A stretch of DNA of 64,000 bases from Halichondria panicea. Lineage: Eukaryota > Porifera > Demospongiae > Suberitida > Halichondriidae. This document shows, one piece after another, positions 5,032 to 52,458 of the stretch; within the stretch, counting starts at the first letter, position 1; every line of letters begins with the position of its first letter. Position numbers and translations under genes: made by a program. The notes below the pieces were generated by a model. It was not told the DNA's origin and ran no database searches. It saw nothing but the letters and a program-made list of their open reading frames with translations. The stretch lies in contig NC_087383.1 in assembly GCF_963675165.1 (NCBI RefSeq), forward strand, positions 4,804,979 through 4,868,978, in the 5' to 3' direction.

Positions 5032-5538
5032 TAGTTGGGCGGAGTCCAACCAACTGCGTGGGGTTGGACACCACTCCAATCTGGGTTTTGTTCCACTGCA
5101 GAAATATTGCAGCCCAATCAGATTGCAGAGTTCAAGTGTGAAGGCGTGGCTCGAGATCGAACGAGTCAGTAACTAGTAATTCAAATCAAAATGCAACAAT
5201 AGTAGACAAGCCAGCTTGATCCAGGAATACGTCAGGTCAGTTAGAGCAGTGGCATGCAAAAGTGACTCCTGCAGTAGCATTCTAACTGAGCTTTGAGGTT
5301 ACCGCCCACTTGGGATTAATCATTCATGCTTAGCCACACCCTAAAGCTAGGTACCAGTGGAACAAAACCCAGATTGAAGTGGTGCCCAACCAGAGGAGGT
5401 ACGACATCCGCGTGTCAAAGGAAACGTTTTAGACACACATTCCTTAGGTCAAAGTTCGGAATGTGTGTTTAAGACACGCGGATGTCGTACCTCCTCTGGT
5501 GCCCAACCCCACGCAGTTGGTTGGACTCCGCCCAACTA
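5032..5538. mobile_element. TIR element, 9-bp TSD class, interrupted by a nested hairpin
   Basis: The termini are TAGTTGGGCGGAGTCCAACC and its inverse. A 9-bp direct repeat GGGTTTAAT flanks it at 5023-5031 and 5539-5547. Arms extend about 75 bp, with a unique centre. The right arm is split by a second palindromic insertion at 5390-5499. It shares its terminal TAGTTGGGCG with the element at 20240-20434. Confidence 0.85.
5390..5499. mobile_element. nested 110-bp palindromic insertion, 7-bp TSD
   Basis: A near-perfect hairpin with arms CCAGAGGAGGTACGACATCC and inverse, inserted into the right arm of the 5032-5538 element. Target duplication TGCCCAA at 5383-5389 and 5500-5506. A diverged relative of one arm lies near 18860 (GGGAGGTACGACATGCG). 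Confidence 0.85.
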
Positions 5539-9400: not shown

Positions 9401-11826
9401 ACTCTTGGTTTAGCTGTAACGGATGCTAACATGTCGCAGGTTGTACTTAAGATGGTAGCGTTCCGTCTCAAGTACTTCACTCACAAGTTTGAGGTGTTTG
9501 ACGGAATCATTGTCGTCATCTCTTGGACTCTGGACGTTGCTTCAGTGTAAGAGTGCATAATTATTATTTACACGTCTATATTTAAGTATGCCACGATCAT
9601 TATCATAATTAATGCTGCCATACTGTATCCACGGTATAGTATATAGCTCCATTTCCTTGCAACCTAGCTATATAACGTGAATGTTAAGGGTGGTGGTGTT
9701 AGAACATGTAGGTTTTTGTACTACTGCTAATAGATTTACCACAGTTTTAAAATGTGTGTTCACTCTCTTTAGAGTTGAAGAGGAGGCCTTTGAGGTTGCT
9801 GCTCTGTTGATCATCCTCAGACTGTGGCGTATCCTGCGTATTGTCAATGGTGAGTGATCACTCTTGAAGTGGTAGCTACTACTTGGGTTTCACTGATTTG
9901 AACATCCTGTCTGTATGAATAGACATGTTTCCTTGGCTGGGTTTGAAGGTATTCACATCATCCTGGGTCCATTGCAACTACCTGCAAAAAACTACATATA
10001 TACAGTATAGCAGGTATATTTCGAGGTTATTATAAATGTTCACGTTTTCCGCTGATTAATAAGCATGTACCACCAATATTATTTTATACCTTCAGCACCC
10101 TCCTGAGTGAGTCAGTCGTCCTACTGTATTGTGGCTAGGCAAGAGACTCTGCTCTGTAGTCTAGTTGAGCTTGTCATTTAATATATATATATCCAATATC
10201 AGATGCATGTACTGAAAAAAGGCTGCTATTTATTCCGGGAAAATTTTTCTAACTGTCTTTTTGCAAATGTTTATACCCTCGAAATGTACCCACTCAGGAG
10301 TGCATGAATATTCATGCACTCCTGACCCACTATATTGTGCTAAATTTTTAGTCAACTAATTCCCATTCAGACCCCGGCCTAGGTGTTATCATCTGCTCCA
10401 TAAGAGTGCAGCTACATGTAGCTACATTATAGATTGTACCCACTGTCTGGGATAGGTTAACAGAGTGATGCCTCCTATTGCTGTGCCTAGCTTTGTATAT
10501 ACAATGTACTCAGTGGTCTCAACTGAACTGAACATTAGAGTTAAGAAATGTGTTTGATGCAGGCTCCATCTTGGCTGCCAAGGCTAAGTCTGATGAGCAC
10601 CTGAGGGAAGCCAAGAAAGAAGCAAAGCGGATCATACACGCTTTTCATAAAGCCAGAGACAGCAAGGTCTCGTTGGAGGTGAGTGCCTGTCGTCAGTCTG
10701 AGGACGTCTCTGTCTTCTTTAAGCAGTATTATCATGTCAATAGCCGAGGGTTAGCACTCCAGTGCTCTAGTTAAATAATTGTTACCCATGTTTTGTACGT
10801 GTATAGTAATCATGTAATCATGTGTTCTCACAGAAAGAAAACCTTCGCCTTCGGAAGCAGCTAGGAAACTCGGGCTCACAGGACTCTAATTACAACACTG
10901 AAGAGCAACCAGACCTCAATCAGGTGCCTTGTCAAAGCTACATAACATAAAGCTACCGTATAGAGGGACATTTTCGTGTGATGCAAATTTTCGGGTAAAC
11001 TCCCACGCATTGGTAATTTCACATGCAAAGCTATTGGTGGGTGTGGTTTCCTGGCATTGATATTAGAACCCATGAATATTTCTGCTGAGGGCTCTAAAGC
11101 CATATAGCGAACATTTCCCGCTATACGGTACTAGCTATAATTATTGCTAATACACACAGATGTCACAAAGAAACCATACCTTATAATCAGGTACTTGTAC
11201 TACATGTACAAACAAGTACTTTAGTACCGGCAAGAGTGCATAAGAAGAGAAGAGTGTCAAACTACTGATACTTTACACAAACACTGTGCACAAAGTAACA
11301 TGACTCGCACATGATAAAGTATTGTGAACTTACTAGTAATTAATACCTAGTAAATGTTAACTGTGACGTTTCTAGGGGTGGGGTAATCTAATTACAATTC
11401 TAGCTAGTTGTTCGTGTTCAACGTTCATGGAGCTTATGGAGCTGCTCACTGCACACTGATAGGAGACGATCTCTTCACAAAAATCATCTAAATAGAGACA
11501 ATAGTCGAGTTGATCATCTTCACTTGCACTCTTTACTCACTATTAACAACTTTGCGTTGTGTAATTATGCACAAACGTCATCAATTGCGAGTTGCTCACG
11601 TGCAATTGACAGGATGTCACGTTACTTTGTGCACAGTGTTTGTGTAGAAGTATCAGCAGTTCGACACTCTTCTCTTCTTATGCACTCTTGGTACCGGTAT
11701 ATATATACACGCAGCTGTTGCAGGGTCAGGCATAGTGTTGTGCTCGCACCCTGTATAGGATATTTATGTTCACTTCTTTCTTTCATGCAGGTACAGGTAC
11801 CTGTCAGTTCTTCACGTGAAGAGTAG
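6422..11826 (+). CDS. HVCN1: voltage-gated proton channel (Hv1 / HVCN1 homologue)
   Basis: Four-helix voltage-sensor protein; in this family it conducts protons outward across the plasma membrane without a separate pore domain. Nine phase-consistent exons: 6422-6540, 7051-7182, 7789-7910, 9008-9093, 9440-9546, 9773-9849, 10563-10678, 10834-10923, 11791-11826 (294 aa; human Hv1 is about 273). S1 is at about residues 97-117 (VVLDAIIVLTEFLLD, with the selectivity Asp in LDAI), S2 at about 137-153, S3 at about 166-188 (KFEVFDGIIVVISWTLD). S4 at about 200-213 reads RLWRILRIVNG, the Hv1 signature with three Arg and the WR pair. A charged coiled-coil tail follows (about 215-265), the dimerisation region in the family. 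The N-terminus is Ser/acidic-rich. No frame break. Introns carry several small transposons. Confidence 0.93.
7245..7350. mobile_element. one-ended copy of the CAAGAG element family
   Basis: About 105 bp in proton-channel intron 2 match one arm of the element at 11231-11690 (TGTGCACAAAGTAACGTGAC, CAATTGCACGTGAG). No second arm is visible nearby, so this is a truncated copy. Confidence 0.65.
7969..8205. mobile_element. hAT-like MITE
   Basis: Ends are CAGGGTTGCATCTAG and, inverted, CAGGGTTTCGTCTAG, followed by a G-rich stretch (GGGGGGGAAGGTT) in both arms. ACTGG is repeated directly outside both ends (7964-7968, 8206-8210). The CAGGG terminus is typical of hAT ends. It lies in proton-channel intron 3. 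Confidence 0.7.
8616..8663. repeat. short tandem duplication
   Basis: Two adjacent copies of CTATTATAGAAAGGGAAGTA in proton-channel intron 3. Confidence 0.8.
10295..10324. mobile_element. 30-bp perfect palindrome flanked by 7-bp direct repeats
   Basis: A perfect palindrome whose half-site is CAGGAGTGCATGAAT. ACCCACT occurs immediately before (10288-10294) and after (10325-10331). An identical palindrome is at 15458-15487 and a centrally deleted version at 41144-41159. See findings. Confidence 0.8.
10955..11128. mobile_element. CCGTATAG-family MITE, TA target
   Basis: Begins CCGTATAG and ends CGCTATACGG, flanked by TA on both sides. Shares the interior phrase GTGGTTTCCTGGCATTGA with copies ending at 27096 and spanning 29182-29399. 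The TA duplication suggests a Tc1/mariner-type origin. It lies in the last intron of the proton channel. Confidence 0.75.
11231..11690. mobile_element. 460-bp TIR element with 7-bp TSD
   Basis: Ends are CAAGAGTGCATAAGAAGAGA and its inverse, with arms of about 70 bp (also TGTGCACAAAGTAAC). GTACCGG is exactly duplicated at 11224-11230 and 11691-11697. It lies in the last intron of the proton channel. Confidence 0.85.
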
Positions 11827-12468
11827 AGGGCCGGGACTGGATGACTTTTAGCTATCATTATATTTATAATGTATATATACACTGATCAGCACCAATCATC
11901 CTGCATGGCTGAGGGCCGGGGTATGTATATTAATATTTTATGTCAATGAGCAATGTATAGTCATTTGTCATGAATGTCTTGAAAACCAGAGGATCGATAA
12001 TTCTGTATAATGATATGCATGCAAAGTACGCATGCATGTGAATGATACGTACACGATCACCATGCAGCTAGCAATCGCAATTGTTAATAAGATGTATATA
12101 GCTATGTGAATACAAGTAATTTTTTGGTCAGTTGAATTCCGTGCTAAAACTGTAGTCACATCAGTCATGCATGAATACACATGTAATATCATACACTTAA
12201 TTGTCACTTGCAGGACTATTTTTTATACACATCAAAGTTGTGAATGACGTGAGATTGATTGTCATATGCCCCCCCCCGATACTTCTTGCATTCCTTTGGC
12301 TAATCATAGCACTGATTGCAAATGTTTGCGTATATATATTTTCGATGTAGTAGCGTAGAACCAACTGACAATTTTCAGTTTCGTTAGTTCCTCATACGTA
12401 TGCCACACATGTACAATGTAAATGCATATAAAATTCTACGTTGTTATACAGAAAAAAATTATGTACAA

Positions 12469-13000
12469 TCAGCTAGAGGCCTGGCCAACACTGGAAAGAT
12501 GGTTTGCAGCAATTTTTCTAGCTAAGGCACAATTGGATCCACCATATGGATGAGCGACTGCCTTTACCAACACCCTCCAGGTCGGTACTCCATGTTTAGA
12601 AATAGCATGATTGTGTTGCAACCATGTTTCTATTACTGCATATAGCCCTGCCTTCGGTTCATCCTTATGCTTGCTCTGGATAATGTCCATATCAGCTTTT
12701 ACAAGACGAAGAGCTTTACCAAGTTGAATGAACCTGACAGCCAAATCGGATACCTCTTCTACCACATCAAAACAATCTTCGTTATCTGAAATAAAGTAAG
12801 TCAGGTAAATCTTGTTGAATCACATGTTCACCGGTAACTCACCCAGCACAGTCGTGTTATCCACTGACAGAAAGTCGTCACTATCACCACCATCAGCATT
12901 GATTGTAGCACCTGTAATATTGTTGTTGTTTTTACGATTGGATCAAAATATTAAATAAGACTGAACATGCAGTAAATGGGGGGGGGGAAGAAAATGAAAG

Positions 13001-13038
<38 letters not shown>

Positions 13039-16000
13039 TATATGCTTGATCAGAGGCTGTGGCTACTAAATGTTTCATTTTGCTGGCAGAGGAGGCTACA
13101 ATTCGAGAGGGGCCTTTAGTAGCCGCTCTCAAAATAATAATAGTGGCCTATGACTCTAGCATTTCTGCACGTGATAACCATATTTACTTGCAGCTAGCTA
13201 TATGTAGCTATAGGTAGCAGCTTATTGTTAGTGCTTCACAAAGACTTTCATGGCAAAATTTGAGTTTTTGTTTAAACGCCGCTTTTGAACAATGCTGGCA
13301 AAGGAGGCTACTATTTGAGTGCGGCCTCTGATCAAGCAAGAACAATTGTCCTTCATTCAGCAATATTTACCAATGCTTGGTTGTGGACTGTAATCGGCAC
13401 CAGTTTCAGACCCAGGACGCTTGTTTTTCCTTTCTTCAACTTCCTTCTCTGAAAAAGTATATTATAATGACCGTAAAGATGTGGATTACTAATTGCATCA
13501 TGCAGTAGGCTACCGGTAGTTATAATGAAAGCACTATGGGTCTGGTGCTCCGCCTGGTGCTCTGCGTCAGTGGAAGCATTATTTAATTTGCAATGCATGC
13601 AGAGAATGGTTCAGCAAAAAGGTTATAGTTAAAAAGCTGCTTCGTGGGTATTCTAGTCACGTACTTCCTTCGGCACCTGCAATCCATGTGGTGGCAAACT
13701 TTAACAAAATTATGCTAACCTCGAGTCAAACATGGCCATTAATGGGGGCATAATGCGTGGGTGAGTTCCCTGAGATTTGATTAAAAGCCGCCTTAGACGT
13801 TATTCTACTCAAGGATAGTAATAGTTTTGTAAATGCTCAGGCGGTGGCGTAAGTATTTATGACGCCAACATTCTTGTGTGAGCGTGAGATGTTTCACGAA
13901 ATGGGACAACTCTCAACACGGCAAAACTAACTGGCCAGTCAGGAGTAGCATCTCTGTGGACCTATTTTAGGTCATAGGATGTTTACATATATGTCTCGTA
14001 TCTTATTAATTTAATTTTAAGGTGACCCTCCAAATATCCTAGGGAAATTTTTGAAGGTACATGTATGACTTCTAACAGTATAGCAACTGCTGTGTTGAAC
14101 ATTTTGTCATGGAAGGTCAAAATGTAGGCCGCTAGAAACAAAGTACTTTTAAGCGGCCTGGAAATGAGGCTAGTAGAGTATAACCTCGACCTGGTTGTGA
14201 CACAATCACTTCATTGTCAACTGCGCCTCTAGCATCGTAATTATTTATAAATGTGTTGCCTTAAATCGAAAAATAACCGCAGCTCAGAATGGCGACGTAT
14301 TGTTAATACCGTATACAGTATATACAACCTTGGACACCTTGGTTCCAGAGGTAAACCACGCCTTGATCCACCCACTTTATTGATAAACAGCAGTGCCACA
14401 TGGTTGCCTGCGCATGCGCAGAAGATAAGCAGGCCTGTCTCCATAGTAACAGCTGCAACGCGTATGCGCATTTAAGGGACACGCCCATTTTCTGAATTAT
14501 TAAAAAGAAAATTCCCAAGCCGGATAATCGAGGTTCTACTGTAGCACGACATTTTTGAGGCATTTAAATATCATGTCTAAAAGATTTCGTTGAATAATTT
14601 TTGTGGATTGAGTGCTTACTGGAAGCCACGCCTAAAATTTTGGCACGTTATAGAAGATAATTCTAATCAGAGATAAAGGAAAGAGGAAACGAAACTACCC
14701 TCGAATGAACATCCTGTCTAAAAGATTTCGTTGAATAATTTTTGTGGGTTGAGTGCTTACTGGAAGCCACGCCTTTAATTTTCGCACGTTATAGCAGATA
14801 ATTCTAATCAGAGATAAAGGAAAGAGGAAACGAAAGTACCCTCGAATGAACATCCACTCTTTCCCGCAGTATAATCGAGGCTGTCTTTAGCAGCTTATCT
14901 GTAAGGGTGCGAGGTAGCCAAGCTAATGCCTATTTCTATACACTAGCTGTGGAGAATCATAGATACAAGAGAGAGGGATTGGAAACGAGTTCACGTGCGC
15001 CAATACTCCTACAGTAAATTGAGCAGCTGATCCGCGTTATATGCACTAACCCTCAAATTGGTAGACTACTGACGAGGTAAGCCAGGCTCCTTAATGCATG
15101 AATCTATCAGTGCTTAATACTATTGTTGTAGGCACTAGATCTGTGTAAACCAGCTTGTATATAGGCACACTAAACTGGAAGAATGGCAGTAGTTACCCTT
15201 GTGGAGGTGTTTTTGGGGTGTATATCTCCCATTGTAGGTCTTGATAACTGCTTGTTTTCAACTCTATTGCTTCAGCTAGTTTTTATGATGAATAATAATG
15301 CTTATATATATTGGTGAGTAAATAGATTGGAATAGGTGGCTTTTTGTGAGAAGGCTGCAGAGCTTGTACTTTTGGAAGTTCTGAACTAGTGGTTTCAATT
15401 CTAAAAAGCTTATTTTATTGCTTCCATGCTTTTTTTGTCCATACAGATCTGTTGGCGCAGGAGTGCATGAATATTCATGCACTCCTGTTGTTGGCGTTAT
15501 GAGGCAAACTTGTGCATGCAGAGAAAGAATACCAACACTAGCTATATATATATGTATTACTACATGTATGTGCCTTATTAGCACCACAAATTCAATGCTA
15601 GTTGATAGTTATAGCATAGATAGTTATTTTTGTGCATTTTGTGTACACTACAATATAAACCACGCCCACCATACTTCCGTTTAACAAAGATTGGAACATG
15701 AAATCGAGTTCACGTGACTTGTATTTATGGAAAAATAAACCACTAGCAAATGTGCTCATTCTGTGCAGCTCACTTCTATTTAAAGATCTAAACCTATTTT
15801 AGAAGTATAACCAGGACGCTTACACATTATAGCAATCAAAGACCCTAAAATAGCGCTTTGAAGCTTATAGCTTTATTTCCATGTCTCTTTTTACTGCATG
15901 GGTGTGGTCAGTCATTAGCTAGTACTACATGTGGTTCACAGCGTGTTATAAATTGCTGAAGGAGATGATGTCGAGGAAACACATTTCGAGCGAGTTACCC

Positions 16001-20627: not shown

Positions 20628-25284
<4,657 letters not shown>

Positions 25285-30599: not shown

Positions 30600-33180
30600 T
30601 GCGTCACTGTACATGATATGCTTACTACGGTGCTGAAGACATGCTTATATGAACTGAATTCTTGTTAAATCCTACACTTTCATACAGACAGACCTCAGTA
30701 GTCAAATACGTGATTTTGTAAATTTGATAGCCTAATCTTAAAACTTTGACTATACTTATAATTATAGTCTGCAAGTCAATTAAATCAATGGCCTTCCATA
30801 CATCCACATGCTGGCATGTCCTCAGGGGGGAGGGGCGATTTAATCTGTCCTTGTTCTTAAAGCCAATTGTGAACAATGAAGTCAATGACGCATTGTACAT
30901 AGGCCCTGGTTTTTGTTCACCCATTATTCTATTCTTGAAAATGTGCCTATTATTCTCATAGAAATCTGATTATTCTCATAAAAATCTGCCAAAAAATGTG
31001 ACATAATTAAGACGTAGACATAAACACAGCACACAACTGACACACGACATAATTAATATAATCATGATTCAGTTTCTCAGTGTTATCTTGCTGACTTGAA
31101 CTGATCCAAAGTATTCACCTTCAGCCATTTTTGCCATGAGAACGTCGTTATGCAAAACTTAATGTAATGATATTTACCAAAAATGAACATTGTAGCCTTA
31201 CAATTATTCTTTAGACACCTTAGTATTAGCATAGATACTCTACTATCTATGGTATTAGGTAGGTAGATGGCAGAAGTAAAGTGTATGCTAAAATTATTCC
31301 GAGCATAATTTATTAGGCCTACATTTGTACATGTACATTAGTATTAGTGCTGTCACATGATATCTAGTAGACCTTGAACCTTTTTTTTTATTATTACAGT
31401 CATACTTTCGCCCATGTACCGATTTACTTTTCTTTTTGCTCAAAATGTCTACCCATTAATTTAGTGTCTTTTTGTACTCATTTGCAAAACTTAATTTGTA
31501 CCCATTTTTCCAGTGTTAAACTCATGTTATGATTGGTTATGATTATACTCTATGATTAAGTATATACACACAGTCGCACGACATGTCACATAAATGGCAT
31601 TTGTGAGCGAAATAATTATATTGACAGACTTCACTAATTTTCCATAATGTACGCATTGCTTCAGAGTGTCTGTTTTCATTATAGATTGATGAAAAGTCAA
31701 GCTCCTGGGGAGAATAAAATATAAAACATTGTGTCCCAAGCGATCTCGTTGAGGATGAGTGTCGACCAGAGCTGGGCTAATTAAAAGGGGATAAGTATAT
31801 ACATGTATATACTTTACCCATAGATTGGGGGGATCTTCAGTTGAACGGGTGAAAATATTTACCTCACATTAAGCACTTAATTGTTTATATCACAAGAGAG
31901 GTAGTCTACATGTAGCAGTTAAGTGACAGTTTCCGAATCGACGAGTCCACTTGTTGTGTTGACACTGAGCACCAGTATATAAGAGTCATTGAGCATTGGG
32001 AACTGTCGTTACGGTAACAGTCACAGGCTCGGCTCCATTAGAATGTTACATCTGAGAACAGGCTCAAGCATAATGATATGGTCGTTTTCAGGATCAATTG
32101 CATATATAATAATTATCATTTCAGCAGGGTTATTGGGTATGCGCTTGGAGAAGGACTGTATGCATGAGAGTTCAAGTTGGAGGGTCAGCTGGACAGTGAT
32201 GCATTTGGACCTGGAGAGAATACATCACATATAAATGTTAATATGCGACGTTGCCATAACATAAAAATAAATCGTTAAATCAAGTATTACTAACAGTTAT
32301 ATAGCTAGCACCATAATTGTATCGTGTAGTAATATAATACTATGCCATTAGTTTGTAGTGTTGCAATCAGTAGTAAATTGCATAATTGCCAAAGAGGTCC
32401 TAGCTTGCACCATGACCAGTTTGTTCCGTAGCTACAAGCTGAAGTTAATAGCCAGCAGCTCTAAATGCAAAACTGATGAAGTGTCCTTGCGAAAATTAAA
32501 CAATTTTAGCCACAAGTCTAATTCCCCGGAGGCTTCTTGGGGGAGAAGGTGACAATTTTCAGTACAGCCCCCCCGCCTCTGATTTTGGCTCCTTTTTTGA
32601 CAGGCGGTGCGTGACAAATAAATTATTTGCTACTAGTGTTTTTTCTAAAGCTTGATCTTGCTGTGTTTACCTTCAAAGGGTACTTAAACAGCGATAGTTC
32701 GGTATCTTCTGGACGAAACTGTTCCAAACGCCTGTCAGTCGAATTCTAGTGGGATCGTCCATCATTTACTTACTTTTGTTGGCTGAAATTTGAGGTAACG
32801 TAAAATGCTTTCCGTGTATTGCCTGTTATCTTTTAGAAGAGCAGCTTTTATGCTAGCTAATCCCCAACAATTCTAATAGAAGCTCGTGGCCATGTCTAAT
32901 AAGAGCACTTCTTTTGTGTTCTATTTAGTGCCTATGACTAGGTAGACATTTTGTGTTAGTTTACGGTTGTAATTTACTAGATTTTTGTGCGATTGAGTTG
33001 CTCCTGCATGCTGTTAATGTTAGCATGCAAGAGCCAATATTTAAATGTTAGGGCAGTCCATGTTATTATGGACTCTTGATGTTAGGGCTTGAGAAAGCAG
33101 CATGTTAATATTAAAGTTTTCAGTATTATTTATGCTTGATTCATGTTCTACTTCCAACCCGCCCCCCTCAATCACAACAG
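30600..33180. other. intergenic, no gene recognised
   Basis: 2.6 kb of AT-rich sequence without a convincing exon. A candidate donor (TTTGAG followed by GTAACG, near 32793) could end a non-coding first exon of the following gene, whose first coding exon opens with an acceptor at 33180. That is speculative. Confidence 0.4.
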
Positions 33181-33185
33181 GTTCG

Positions 33186-35775
33186 ATGACTTACACACCT
33201 AACAGTCGCACAACCATTGACCAAGAGGTCTTCAAATGGGTAAAGCAGCAAAAGCAAAAAGACAAGGTTGTTACAGTCAATCTAATACGTCAAAAAGCTT
33301 TCGAACTAGGTCAAGAACTAGATCCAAACTTTAAAGCATCCTTGAATTGGTACAACAATTGGAAAAAGCGCTATAACTACTGTGAATCTCCTGAAGCTGA
33401 GGCTCTGAAACATAAAAAGAGACACTACACAGCAGCTTTCAAGCTTCATGCTGTCCAAAGAGCTGCTGAGATGGAGTCGGCCAGTCAGGCTGCATTGGAG
33501 CTGGATGTATCGAGGAGGTGTCTTCAGAGGTGGACGGAAGAGGTTGAGCTCATCTCCAGCGTGGCCGAACATTCATCCAACGCTGTATACAGGTGAGAAA
33601 GCGTGTCCTTTGCTGAAAGCAAGACTGTTGTGGTTACCACTTAAAGGTATGCATGTGTGATTGTACAATTCCGTAATGAAAGGTAGTTCTATAGATATAC
33701 TGCTCGTTGCCAAGATAGTATACATGTTCATGTTTAGTTTATTTGATAATCATACGTGTGCTCCCACCAGACGCCCGGGTCAGGGTCGGAAGGTTGTTGA
33801 CGAGAATCTGGATAAGGAATTAGTAGAGTGGCTGAAAGAGGCCTGGAAACAAGGGGCAAACATCACTGTGAACATGATTCGAGAGAAAGCAATTGAAATG
33901 TCTCATGCATCTAGCTTTAAAGCCTCTCTGGGATGGTACATGAAATGGCAGAAAAGACATGGCATTGACTTGAAAGAACGCACATGCAACCCACCAGCTA
34001 GTGAGACAGCGTCACCACTCAAGCTACGTCTATTACAAGATGGAGAGGTGTTTTCTTACAGTCCAAGTGCCCCGGCCAGAAAAAAACGCAAGACAAATAA
34101 ATCAAGATTGAGTTATGACGATGAGGCTCTGTTAGAGAATGATGAAGAGTTTGATCGGCAGCTGCTCACCTGGTTGGTCGAAAGATGGGAGGCGGGAGAT
34201 ATAGTGACGGACAAGATGGTGAAGGATCGAGCAATGGAGCTCACCACTAACCCAGACTTCAAGTCCACTAAACCATGGCTGATGGCCTGGAAGAGAAAGT
34301 ACAACATCTCTCTAGAAAATCAGGTACATGTATTGTGCTGCATTTTGTGTGCTACAGCTTAATTGTGTGCATTTACAGTTACATATTAATTATGTATACA
34401 TTGTAAATTAAGTGTTTGTGTTGTAACATTTGAATGACAGCTTGTACCATATTTTAAGTGACCTACATGTTTGTACGTAACGTGTAGATTGTAGCTGCTG
34501 AGTATTTTTATATGCTTATGCTCCGCCCTTCCCCACTTAGACATACGGCAATGAGGGTGATGATGAAGCTGAAGAGATCATTGAAGCAAGTGAGGTGTAC
34601 GACCAACAAGTGTTGCTGGAAGACCAACAGGGACCCTCCACTTCTGGGGCTACTGAAGACCCTCTCACACCCACTAAAGAAGAGGCTGCCACTGCTCTAG
34701 CATCTCTCTCAGCCGAGGATCACGAAGCTACTGGTATCGAAATTGCCGAAGCTCTTCAAAAACTAGCCAATGCTTTTGGAATTGCAACTCAGGATGGAGC
34801 TAAAGAGGCCATGGCCCAATTAACCGCTGCTTATCAAGGGGAAAACCCCGAGTTCCTTCTTGAGGGTGGTGAGCAAGTTGCTGTTGAGGAGGTTATCTCT
34901 GAGGAAGTGGTCACCGATGAGCCTATGGTTGTCATTGAGGAGAGTGCAATACCCAGCACAGAGTCCTTGGTCAGCGAAATCACCACTACCCCTGTGATTA
35001 GTGTCTCAACGAGCTCTACTTCTGGGGACAGTATTGTGATTGAGACCCACACTGCACCTATAGTGAGCATTAGAACCTCAGAGCAAATCCAGGTATGAAT
35101 AATCTTAGAGTACATGTACATGCAATTGACCATGTATTTGTTGTAAAAAAAAGATTTGTCATTCTAATGGGCATACACCATGGTGAACCAAAGTATTGTT
35201 CCAGGTAACATCAACACAACTCCATACATCTATGTGCTCTGAAGAGGTACAAATTCAGCCTGAACAGTTGCACGTATCCAGTGAAAGTATGGTGGTAGCG
35301 ACTAGCTCCTCTGCTGAGGGGTATATCAGTGAGGAGGTGATCATCAGCGAGCCGGCTGAGGACAATGAAGATGTGGAAGTGTTGGTGGAAGAGGACGGAT
35401 CGGGCATCGTGTTTGTGCCAACCACATCACAGGTGAGTGATATACATAATAGGGAGTAGGAAAAGTTGTTTTACGAAAATGTCAAATGAAGTTTGCAATG
35501 AAAATATAAGTGTATTGTGAAGGAGTTACTAAGACAAATTGTGGTTTGGGTGATGAGTGGCACAATTACTGTATGCTAGCGTGTTGTAGTCTACATGTAT
35601 GTTATTCCACCTGTTTGATTTACATTCTAATTATAGGCTGCCTAACCCTTTGAAATAGGTCAGGTACTCACTGTATGCCACCAATTCCCTGTTCAGTTTC
35701 TTGTTCGTGGCTTTGTTATTACTCTCCGCTAACTTCTACTTTACACACGTACTACATATCCTTTCCACACACACG

Positions 35776-40100: not shown

Positions 40101-43100
40101 GAGAATCTGGTTACTCGGATCATTGTGAGCTGGAGATCGATGTGCATCCCCAAAAACCATGCTTTGTAATGTGATTGTAGAAGTTTATAATCAAAATTGA
40201 TTGTGAACTTTGTTCATATGCAGCATACGTAGCTCAAGTTTTGTGAAAAAACAATTAGATCAATATTGTTACAGTACATGTTCTGAGTAACCAGTTTTTG
40301 TTTTAGGTGCTGCTGTCTGAAGTAGAAGAGCTGAATTCCACCATTGACCTTTCGTTGGCTGACATTGTGAACATCCTCACACAAGGAAGAGCTCTGGTGA
40401 TTGAGGCCACTAATTTCTCTGAGGTAGGTCAGTAGCCAAAATAGCGCCCCAGTGGAAAACTGGACTGTTTGTACCAGTGGATATTATTCTCTAACCTATC
40501 ATTAGTGTATGTACGTACACACAATTTACCGTTTCCAAATGTGTATATAAGACTAAAAAACCAAGCCGTTATCAAATTGTACAAGTACGTATCCTTCCCT
40601 CTGATTCATATGCCTGTAAAGATTGAGGCCATCAATTTGAAAAAGTGTCCCTTTTACATTCACCAACAATATGCACACACCTTGTACATGTATATGCGCA
40701 GTCATCGGAAGCTCTATTTCCTCCGCTTTTATCCATCCTCTCTACTCTCCAACGGTTGTTGGACGAGTACAACACCTCCCTGTCTGCTTTTCGCCCTCAA
40801 GAATCATGTGATCCAAGCTCCACCCCCTGCACGAGTGGACAGTTGCACTCCATTAACCTGGCAACAAATGCTTCATTTATTGTCAAGTAAGTACCACTTA
40901 ATTATTACTATACATGTACGTACCGTACCGTGCAGACCTCGAATAGCTAAAAGCCTAAAAATAGCCTAATAATGTGCGCTACAAATGTATCCAACATGAT
41001 AGCCCTCGTATATAGCATTAGTTTATGTCATATCCAGCACTATGTACGGCAATAAACACTGTAGGTATTCAGCCCAAACAACAGGATAATAATAACTCCC
41101 AACTTTGCAAGTATACACATGCAGACATGGTTGTACACGGTGCCAGGAGTGCACTCCTGACTGTGCTTGTAGATCTAGTACATGTCCCATGACTGTGATC
41201 ATGCTCTGATCCCTTATGCAGCTCAACTGAGAGTGTTTCCACACTGATGTATGCTCGAGAGTTTTTGGAGAACATTGACTCTAGTGGGCAGCTGTTCAAC
41301 TATACTGCCATCAACCAGACTGCTCTGAGAGCTCAGGACCTTTCTCAAGCTGCAATTAGCCAGGTACATATAAACAATTAGGATTACAGTTTTTCTTTCC
41401 TCGAGGTTTTGGTGTGATGCACACAGCACTCATTTTGTATATATTTATGATTGCAGGTAGCTATAGTAGACACCTCTTCTCTTCTCTCTCGGTCGACAGT
41501 GGCTCTATCAGCAGCTCAGAATCTCTCTATTCAATCACTCTCACTATTGCAACGAGCTCAAGGTACGCACATGTACATGTACATGTAGTTTAACATAGTC
41601 ATTATGTGTACCTAACTATGCATGCACATGGCAAGCATCGTGATTTACTTTTTTGCTGGATCATAATGTTGTCCATTGTACGGTGTATAATTATCGTATA
41701 TCTACCATGTACATCGTCACTGTATACCCTTCCCAAAATCATGGCTACGCCACTGACACTTTAATAGCAGTGAGTAGCTTTCAAACACAAAACTGACTGT
41801 CTTCCCCCGTCTACAGATGTCGATTCAACAGTGGTGATCAACTCGAATCGTGTGCCAATCATACAAGAGCAACTGGATAGCCTGCAGCTTCAGCTCCCCC
41901 CTATAGTCAATAGAACATCACTCCTCCTCTCTCAAACAGGCCTACGAGATGAAGCTCTGAGAATTCTCCACACAGCACAAGAGGCTCGCAATCGAACCAT
42001 AGAGACAGAGCAGAGGGTGTTTAGGATAGAGGAGGGGCTTGTGGGTGTGGCATCCAATCTAGCAGGGACAGCTGAAAATGTCTTGATGGGAGAAGAGGCT
42101 CTGAGCAATGCAGAGAACGATTGTGAGTACACTGCATGTGTTCAAAAAGAACCTCATGGCCATGTAATGGTTTTGTAGGATGTATAGTGATATCAAGCAC
42201 TTAGCGCCACCATCTATCAATTTCAGTTTATAGCATCTCGACGTTCCTGAATGCAACGAGAGTGGCTAGTGAAGCCTTTGTGGTGAACGTGACTCAGTTT
42301 ATCTCTGATAACGATCGGATTATCGCTGACATCGACACCCTCATTGCTGGATTGGCAGACATCCACAGTAGGATTAACAGGGTATGGAAAAATGGACATA
42401 TCATTATAATAGATAAAGGAGTGGTGCATGTACGTATACAGGTGTTGTACTAAAAGAGTATACCTTTGCCATAGTAGTGCTGCACAAATATTGTACTATG
42501 GGCGGTAAGAAAGTAAATTTTGTTCTGTTCCCCCCCCCCCCTCTCCCCGAGCAGATCAACTCCCCCATCCAACTGGAGAGTGATGATGAAGAAGAATCAT
42601 ACCTCTCCCTGCAAGTTCCCCCGGGTCGCGCTATCGATGACACCATCCAGTTTGAGACGCTGGACATGTACATCTGGACTGGACCAGGCTTCAGGTCTCC
42701 TGCTCTGCTCTTCTATGCTGGTCCCACTTACTTTGAGGGGGAGGATGACATCAGCAGCGCAGAAACAGGCACTGAGGTGAGTATTGCCCAATTAAAAGTA
42801 ACACTGTACCAAACATACTTAGTGTGCTTAGTTGTAGCTACTAATGTGCACTTGAATGGGGCAGGTGCACAGTTATGTAACACAACTTTTGAAGGAGGGT
42901 TGTCCAATAATGTTACTACTACATGTATAACGATAGATATGTGCATGATGCGATCAGTAGAAACAAGCTTAACATGTACAGGACTACTTTGTGGTGACTC
43001 TGGAGGACAGTGACGTGGTATTGCGCTGGCAGATGGGAGGGAGTGGGGGCGTGGCCTCTGCTCCTGCCTTCAGACAGGGACACAGTCAGATATTCATTTC

Positions 43101-51021: not shown

Positions 51022-52458
51022 CTATTTCCTGAATCGTTCTCGGTTGCAAGAGTAGCAACAACATTCATTGAGCAAGGCGAGCACCAACAGCACCACCTCC
51101 CCCACAGTCAGCAGAGTGAAGCCCAGGAACAGTCCTGTATTGCCTCCAATGTCAGAGATCAGGCTCCAAGGAGTGTACGAATCTGTTGTTTCAAGAACAT
51201 CTGTCACAAGTGTCCGATAGAAAACGTTGATTCCTACTCTGTCATTGTGGTCATTAGTTGCGCTACTTGCAGTAATGGTGCGATCAATACGTTCACATTT
51301 CAGTGGGCAGCTACAGTTCTCTTTAAAAGTCTCGAAACTGTTCACTTCACAGCATATGTCCGCCGCAACACAATTTCTCATATTGATGTAAGGGCTTCTA
51401 ACCGGTGTGTAAAATGTCCTCTCCACACATTGGCATTCACTCGCAATGTGTGTGTAAAAACAGTCATTCAAGCAAAGAGAATGTGAGAAAGATGAGTAGT
51501 TGGAGAATGCTAAATTCTGAGACGTGATGTCAGAATTTTTAACACAGTCTTGACCAGAATAAAATCGTGTTTTGTCGGTTGAAATGATTTGTTGCATTCC
51601 TACATACAGGCTGGACGACAAGCCAACTATAATCCCATCACTCTCGGGCCTTGGTGGTTCATCACGATTGTGCACGATGACGTTATAGCCATGGTTATTG
51701 TTCAAGCTAAATGACTGATCTCCGTTTAAGACTTGAATTCTCAGGCCCTGTCGCACACCGGTCCCTTGAACTGTTCGAGGTGTTTTCGTATTCGGCCCAT
51801 TAAATGTAAAGCAGACACCACTTATTGTATCAATTGTCTCCAAGTCATTGATGCAATTTTCACCTTGAAATGAACACGCAACGATTAACTTGCCAGGATC
51901 ATTTCTTGCAGTATCTGAAACGAGATTTCCAAAGCTGATGTTGCGACCAGTTCTATTAGCAATTTCGTTTGCAACAGACACACACTGCGCTAAAGGAGGC
52001 GTGTTGGGGAGTGATGCAGTTTCAAATAGAGTTGATAGTTGTTTTTGTAAATTGTATTGTGGTACTTGATTGTTATCAGTAAACTCTGTTAAAACAGTCG
52101 TGTTAATAAAACTTAAACTGCAGACAGTCACAGCAGGAAACTCCAACTTCGTCTGCCTCATTTCAGTAATAGAGGTCGAGATTGGTTCCTCAATCAACAA
52201 GATGATACTCTGCGCAGTGATGAAGAAAAATCCTGCAATTGCTAAAAGTATAATTGATCCCCAAAGAAGGCGCTTGCAAATCGACTTGCTCTTGAACTCG
52301 TACACTGCAGCACTGAAGGAAGAGTTGTCTCCGAATTTCTGAAGATGGTGAACCCACTTTCTCTTCTCACTTGGAGTGTCAGTGGCGTCACCATTCTCAT
52401 TATTCCTTTTTTCCATTTCAAACATTGGTCTTATAGGACCTGTTATTTCTACTTCCAT
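51022..52458 (-). CDS. DEG/ENaC/ASIC-family cation channel, intronless
   Basis: A single 478-aa ORF. Family features: cytoplasmic N-terminus; TM1 at about residues 62-84 (LLWGSIILLAIAGFFFITAQ); post-TM1 motif FPAVTVCSLSF; a Cys-rich extracellular loop (CLNDCFYTHIASECQC, ENCSCPLKCERI); pre-TM2 and TM2 at about 430-460 (SDIGGNTGLFLGFTLLTVGE). These channels are trimeric, usually Na+-selective and gated by peptides, protons or force; the stimulus here cannot be read from sequence. In place of the usual G-x-S filter (GAS in ASICs) the sequence reads GFT. Length is typical (about 500 aa). Lack of introns among intron-rich neighbours hints at a retrocopy, but the ORF is intact. Tail-to-tail with the laminin-like gene. 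Confidence 0.92.
   Translation of the reverse strand: MEVEITGPIRPMFEMEKRNNENGDATDTPSEKRKWVHHLQKFGDNSSFSAAVYEFKSKSICKRLLWGSIILLAIAGFFFITAQSIILLIEEPISTSITEMRQTKLEFPAVTVCSLSFINTTVLTEFTDNNQVPQYNLQKQLSTLFETASLPNTPPLAQCVSVANEIANRTGRNISFGNLVSDTARNDPGKLIVACSFQGENCINDLETIDTISGVCFTFNGPNTKTPRTVQGTGVRQGLRIQVLNGDQSFSLNNNHGYNVIVHNRDEPPRPESDGIIVGLSSSLYVGMQQIISTDKTRFYSGQDCVKNSDITSQNLAFSNYSSFSHSLCLNDCFYTHIASECQCVERTFYTPVRSPYINMRNCVAADICCEVNSFETFKENCSCPLKCERIDRTITASSATNDHNDRVGINVFYRTLVTDVLETTDSYTPWSLISDIGGNTGLFLGFTLLTVGEVVLLVLALLNECCCYSCNRERFRK

Follow-up and report, generated by a model that had tools for sequence, protein, structure and literature searches.

The short perfect palindromes in the window (the whole stretch of 64,000 nucleotides of Halichondria panicea DNA analysed here) are very probably excision footprints of a DNA transposon of the P superfamily (P-element/THAP9-like) with CAGGAGTGCATGAATAT ends. 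This reading is built on arms, 7-bp target duplications, a spectrum of junctions, and equivalent scars from a MITE family and from P-element ends, all directly observed in this genome; the lost parent would belong to the P superfamily by analogy, since the searches described below found no intact copy. The observation itself is real and beyond chance. The 30-mer CAGGAGTGCATGAATATTCATGCACTCCTG is identical to its own reverse complement and has two copies in the window (Table 1), the number of palindromes of at least 30 bp expected in 64 kb from base composition is 9e-5, and the remaining window palindromes of that length all lie within one (AT)n run. The first-pass annotation had reported the two identical palindromes, the 7-mers that flank them (with TT before the right-hand repeat of the second copy), a 16-bp version between 7-mers that agree at 6/7 positions, and an uninterrupted paralogous counterpart of the second site, and each of these was verified in the sequence. 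An alternative parse of the flanks of the second copy (the 15458 scar) places TGTTGGCG on each side and leaves a single T over. Together with the extra TT and the second duplication, this scar adds 39 bp, a multiple of three. It lies inside a single-frame open stretch, 15385-15684 (+), directly after a splice-acceptor-like CATACAG, and the stretch may be coding. The empty site in the paralogue is adjoined by a 214-bp MITE (24100-24313), at the point where the paralogues start to differ.

Table 1. Scars, target duplications and related elements in the window, numbered from its first nucleotide.
Feature	Position	Strand	Basis
Candidate 34-bp scar of another family, arms CACACATTCC, duplication TTTTAGA/TTTAAGA (6/7)	5434..5467	.	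window scan
Left target site duplication ACCCACT	10288..10294	+	window sequence, flank reading
30-bp palindrome, probable excision scar, tail-to-tail join at ATAT/AATATT	10295..10324	.	sequence, genome copies, junction analysis
Right target site duplication ACCCACT	10325..10331	+	window sequence, flank reading
Intact 460-bp MITE, related ends CAAGAGTGCATAAGAAGAG, 7-bp duplication GTACCGG	11231..11690	.	sequence, genome copies
Left target site duplication GTTGGCG	15451..15457	+	window sequence, flank reading
30-bp probable scar, second copy, followed by two extra T at 15488-15489	15458..15487	.	sequence
Right target site duplication GTTGGCG	15490..15496	+	window sequence, flank reading
Empty (pre-insertion) paralogous site GTTGGCATTATG of the 15458 scar	24041..24052	+	uninterrupted sequence
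214-bp MITE, ends CAAGGGCGTATAAAAGAAGA, 7/7 duplication CTATAAT	24100..24313	.	window scan
22-bp probable scar CATAGATACTCTACTATCTATG, P-element-type ends CATAGATA..TATCTATG, 7/7 duplication GTATTAG	31230..31251	.	window scan
Left target duplication ACGGTGC, 6/7 against the right one	41137..41143	+	sequence
16-bp probable scar CAGGAGTGCACTCCTG, join at TGCA	41144..41159	.	sequence, junction analysis
Right target duplication ACTGTGC	41160..41166	+	sequence

The genome-wide search and flank table proposed with the first description were carried out on the 131-Mb assembly (39 contigs). The exact 30-mer has 12 copies against 0 for the reversed control, with flanks that are unrelated between copies but match within them: six pairs agree at 7/7, two at 6/7 (one of these being low-complexity ATATATA), one at 6/6 and one at 8/8, while the 15458 copy has the displaced repeat and one further copy (L014) has no flanking repeat. 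Three of the twelve (L007, L010, L011) sit in copies of a single host repeat. The pattern CAGGAGTGCA-(0-30)-TGCACTCCTG, with arms of at least 10 nt, matched 65 places (50 listed), and CAGGAGTG-(0-10)-CACTCCTG, with arms of at least 8 nt, matched 125 (50 listed); neither reversed control gave a match. The 125 matches have the outer arms CAGGAGTG...CACTCCTG in common and differ in their middles. The two sets overlap, both contain duplicated host DNA, and one locus was matched twice in the set of 65. Eighty-seven sites were read and greedily merged on shared flanks to 67, a step that also merged some unrelated sites. At these 67 merged sites, 26 duplications agree at 7/7 and 17 at 6/7, where shuffled flanks predict 0.05 and 0.52. 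Thus 43/67 sites carry the duplication on both sides at 6/7 or better, as footprints should, against 0.6 expected by shuffling, and the other 24 fall below 6/7 at offset 0. Exact repeats of other lengths are rare (5 bp at one site, 6 bp at three, 8 and 9 bp at none).

The middles of the scars look like end-joined 3' tails of ~17 nt. If the 17-nt end CAGGAGTGCATGAATAT is used on both sides, 52 of the 67 joins need no added base, and inserts, fillers or altered bases are found in the other 15. More than half of the insert-free joins (29/52) fall at 4-nt self-complementary words, compared with 11/100 when every pair of breakpoints from 8 to 17 nt is enumerated; TGCA accounts for 10 of them, CATG for 9 and ATAT for 10, and the commonest scar forms, of 16, 20 and 30 bp, are the joins at these three words of the tail. 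The remaining 23 insert-free joins overlap by 2 nt (9), by 1 nt (1) or not at all (13). The scars thus combine central microhomology joins with fillers, as expected of footprints. Their arms also end near 17 nt. In L119 two full tails are joined (17+17), with ATGATGT on both sides and the last arm base changed, and in the one-armed scar L127 a 17-nt tail plus one base is fused to the duplication; in other one-armed scars the single tail so fused measures 15 nt (L130), 18 nt plus one base (L029) or 22 nt (L107). Among half-site loci (61 in total, L131 being left out of the counts for a pattern mismatch), the left duplication is found again, at 6/7 or better, within 55 nt in 34/60, a count that includes duplicated loci and some matches overlapping the arm, against 9.5 expected when duplications are swapped between loci. 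With duplicates merged, and with the copy required to start past arm base 15, the figure is 18/45 against 5.5. No common continuation past base 17-18 was seen in the half-sites read, except the palindrome's own TTCATG. The limit is blurred by a few bases in L154, L134 and L135, of which L154 is a scar of P-element ends whose arms agree with the termini of coding family L083 over 16 and 19 nt. In L134 and L135, both MITE-type scars, the common sequence AAGAAGAGATAAT runs a few bases past the 17-nt limit, and these extra bases could reflect either a variant end or partial re-synthesis.

These joins bear on an idea raised in the first-pass annotation, that the palindromes are nano-transposons. 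Extended to the 16-, 20- and 24-mers, the idea is that the short units are themselves mobilised, by a transposase whose target duplications are 7 bp long. Several forms are indeed found repeatedly, at sites unrelated to one another and between clean 7-bp duplications, but the three most recurrent are those that tail microhomology predicts, while many others are unique or asymmetric, the centre varying as end joining varies. A two-ended mobile unit would not yield one-armed sites of 15-22 nt (L029, L107, L127, L130), and the P-element ends of this genome leave equivalent scars, one of them with unequal left and right arms. Moreover, P transposase binds internal 10-bp sites within the terminal repeats, for which a 30-mer has no room (PMC7776569). 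Movement of the palindromes themselves is therefore very unlikely. What stands of the earlier proposal is that transposon ends appear to have been joined with no interior, between the 7-bp duplications of a transposase; the variable centres and the one-armed sites speak against mobilisation of the 30-mer itself. Its second suggestion, that the palindromes are repair products of a hairpin end, was close in spirit, although open 3' tails of ~17 nt fit better than hairpins.

The P superfamily is characterised by GTP-dependent cleavage with a 17-nt stagger. Under the excision-footprint reading, an element with CAGGAGTGCATGAATAT ends would insert and make a 7-bp target duplication; on leaving, its transposase would make staggered cuts, on one strand at the boundary of the element and on the other ~17 nt inside it, so that a 17-nt 3' tail would remain on each side of the empty site, within the duplication. 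The tails would then be fused by cellular end joining that is microhomology-mediated and probably depends on polymerase theta. Since TGCA, CATG and ATAT in the tail are self-complementary, the usual products would be perfect palindromes of 16, 20 and 30 bp; the others would comprise near-blunt joins, fillers, the 17+17 join and one-armed products in which a tail is fused to the target repeat. The enzyme, the strand chemistry and the repair polymerase are what we infer from the scars and from the Drosophila precedent, in which 3' tails of 17 nt remain after P transposase has cut, and the products of their repair fall into the same classes (PMC2895639, PMC7776569).

A sister family retains both stages. 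The intact 460-bp MITE of the window lies ~900 bp from the first palindrome and has at least 40 near-complete copies in the genome (40 of 237 candidates scored). In all nine intact copies read (the window copy and the eight next best matches) the duplication is 7/7. The outer 8 nt of its ends, CAAGAGTG, stand head to head at 16 places, other end types included (L140); 13 of the 16 were read, 6 of them with a 7/7 duplication. Three of these head-to-head scars are 16-mers, and in L134 the ends are joined as 17 nt + 8 + 17 nt between GTAAAGC repeats. A search for a variant of the MITE end gave 2 matches. As the 460-bp family has both intact copies and scars, elements and their scars coexist in this genome.

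Scars with other ends are also found. A window scan found nine places where CA..TG arms of 8 nt or longer lie between 7-bp duplications that agree at 6/7 or 7/7, compared with a mean of 0.5 in 40 dinucleotide shuffles; four of the matches span 60 bp or less, as against none in the shuffles. The scan misses the 15458 scar because of its extra TT. In 198,672 bases of other fetched loci, once CAGGAGTG ends are set aside, a scan at 7/7 returned three P elements and one 29-bp scar, whereas duplications of 6, 8 and 9 bp returned 0, 1 and 0; scars of other end types are thus sparse outside the window, with one more at 7/7 in these bases. The 29-bp scar (L026:1121-1149) is a near-palindrome, CAGGAGCACATTACAGTAATGTGCTCCTG, of another end type, with the 7/7 duplication ATAGCTG. 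Elsewhere in the window, 22051-22743 holds ~600 bp of (TG)n microsatellite, across which several frames are open by chance, 33102-34362 contains a pair of open frames that match the DNA-binding domain of Tc5-type transposases (PF03221), and 51022-52458 has one open frame of 478 aa that matches the amiloride-sensitive sodium channel family (PF00858).

The same genome contains P elements. The P-element RNase H domain (PF21787) has 46 matches; in the 4,656-bp element at L083 one open frame matches this domain and the next matches the GTP-binding insertion domain (PF21788). Ten P-transposase loci were fetched, and ends were placed at three (L082, L083, L090) by a finder that accepts only duplications of 6/7 or better, and the count of three is therefore not unbiased. 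At the other seven, including L084 and L087 despite their long inverted arms, no CA..TG ends with a 7-bp duplication were found. Four more copies were tried by their two ends: three have 7/7 duplications, and the left end of the fourth (L208/L209) lies outside the fetched stretch. All six P copies with placeable ends and a duplication (L082, L083, L090, L204/205, L206/207, L210/211) therefore agree at 7/7. P-type ends, CATAGATNAA, are joined head to head at 26 places, of which 20 were read. Nine of the 20 share one flank and represent one event amplified with host DNA; among 12 independent scars, nine have an exact duplication of at least 7 bp, two agree at 6/7 and one has none. In L154 the unequal left-type (16 nt) and right-type (19 nt) ends of the coding family L083 are joined, with one base shared between the arms and GTCAAAC on both sides.

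The target motif RTnnnAY is common to the 30-mer family, the MITE-type ends and the P elements, as judged from 36, 15 and 14 exact duplications, respectively, each counted in both orientations; the second base of the duplication is T and the sixth is A, each in 76-83% of cases across the three groups. Within the P superfamily, Drosophila 1360 makes 7-bp duplications with the motif GTTNAAC, and the Drosophila P element makes 8-bp duplications with the motif GTCCGGAC (PMC3276498). The 30-mer family likewise combines a duplication in the 7-8-bp range with a GT..AC-like target motif and CA..TG ends, as is expected of P-superfamily members. Given a MITE known from both intact copies and scars, P elements that leave scars, and a common RTnnnAY motif, the palindromes are best read as P-type footprints. 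The scars might instead come from another or undescribed superfamily of DNA transposons that likewise produces 7-bp duplications and long 3' tails. In keeping with such an origin, the parent was not found in the half-site, P-locus or host-repeat searches, and its 17-nt end does not resemble the CATAGAT termini of those P families for which ends could be placed. However, duplication length, CA...TG ends, target motif and approximate tail length are all as in the P elements of this genome, and the 17-nt stagger is, according to PMC7776569, an unusual feature in a cut-and-paste transposon, which leaves another superfamily an improbable source.

Two named superfamilies were considered and rejected. 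The hAT transposons make 8-bp duplications; exact 8-bp repeats occur at 0/67 merged sites, the lone 8/8 case (L011) lying in the merged host repeat. Dada was considered because its duplications, of 6-7 bp, resemble those of the palindromes. However, it is set apart by description, being portrayed as inserting into small RNA genes and its U6/U1 families as lacking terminal inverted repeats (PMC3706591).

Some scars have been carried along by their host DNA. Eight copies of one host repeat (L007, L010, L011, L112, L113, L115, L116, L117) have scars at the same target site. The 30-mer is present in L007, L010 and L011, the duplication lengths across these three being 6, 7 and 8 bp (L011 is the 8/8 case); L112 has a shortened right arm and L113 has lost it, L115 has a 40-bp scar with a repeated stretch, L116 has 3 nt added, and from L117 the right duplication is gone. 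No scar is present in the ninth copy, L114. The variants could have arisen when the element left duplicated copies independently, or a single scar could have decayed afterwards. On contig C6 (5325000-5514182; L030-L037), eight copies of a host unit over 190 kb each contain a nearly identical altered scar. Spread of one old scar or palindromic repeat by duplication of host DNA, with diversification through palindrome instability, does account for part of the material, namely the nine of 20 P scars that share a flank, the eight copies of the C6 array and the eight of the host repeat. As an account of the whole it is scarcely credible, since 67 of the 87 sites are left after merging, with different surroundings and different duplications.

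The parent of the excision footprints was sought in several ways. Searches of the genome with an exact 18-mer half-site and with a 17-mer half-site gave no intact CAGGAGTGCATGAATAT-family element among the matches listed, and neither did half-sites with one mismatch (100 of 164 matches listed), although half-site searches could miss an intact parent with mutated ends. P transposase domains are present elsewhere in the genome, and the ten P-transposase loci fetched contained no intact parent of this family. None of the nine host-repeat copies found (from 40 of 372 candidates scored) still holds the element. Among 81 of the 91 listed half-sites, a test that left out six copies of the C6 array and four arms of two-armed scars, only one inward-facing pair lies within 25 kb, at a spacing of 21 kb. 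The GGGATTGG stretch of the coding P ends cannot be compared in the 30-mer family, because it lies beyond what a scar keeps. A bolder and rather doubtful extension of the footprint reading is that the palindromes record a 'ghost' transposon, a family known from scars alone whose intact copies have all gone from the assembly and whose self-pairing 17-nt tails were possibly selected, since quick, tidy repair of the donor site would spare the host, and so the element.

Several known systems resemble the palindromes in part. As in the Drosophila P-element footprints described, the duplication is mostly kept on both sides of two joined tails of up to 17 nt, and short microhomology joins, near-blunt joins, short fillers and tail-to-duplication joins all occur (PMC2895639, PMC7776569). 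The excision scars of PMC2895639 come from one engineered locus, whereas those reported here occur naturally in the genome, at 125 places matched by one pattern, with 67 left of the 87 read once redundant sites are merged. The duplication is also 7-bp rather than 8-bp, the parent family was not found in the searches run, and, unlike those of Drosophila P, the tails hold three self-complementary 4-mers, which makes perfect palindromes the most frequent outcome. Drosophila 1360 resembles the palindromes in its 7-bp duplications and its palindromic GT..AC target motif (PMC3276498). MITEs, of which the window holds two ordinary examples, similarly have terminal inverted repeats between target duplications, but the palindromes have no interior and their joins vary, and they look like end products rather than mobile units. 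In the literature searched, no published natural palindromic footprints were recognised as the same, which does not prove their absence from print.

A natural genome thus holds a large collection of scars with readable ends, from which the rules for joining long 3' tails, and the past activity of transposons, can be read directly. Short palindromes with perfect target duplications need not be mobile elements, and transposon families can be recognised from their scars even where no intact element is found.
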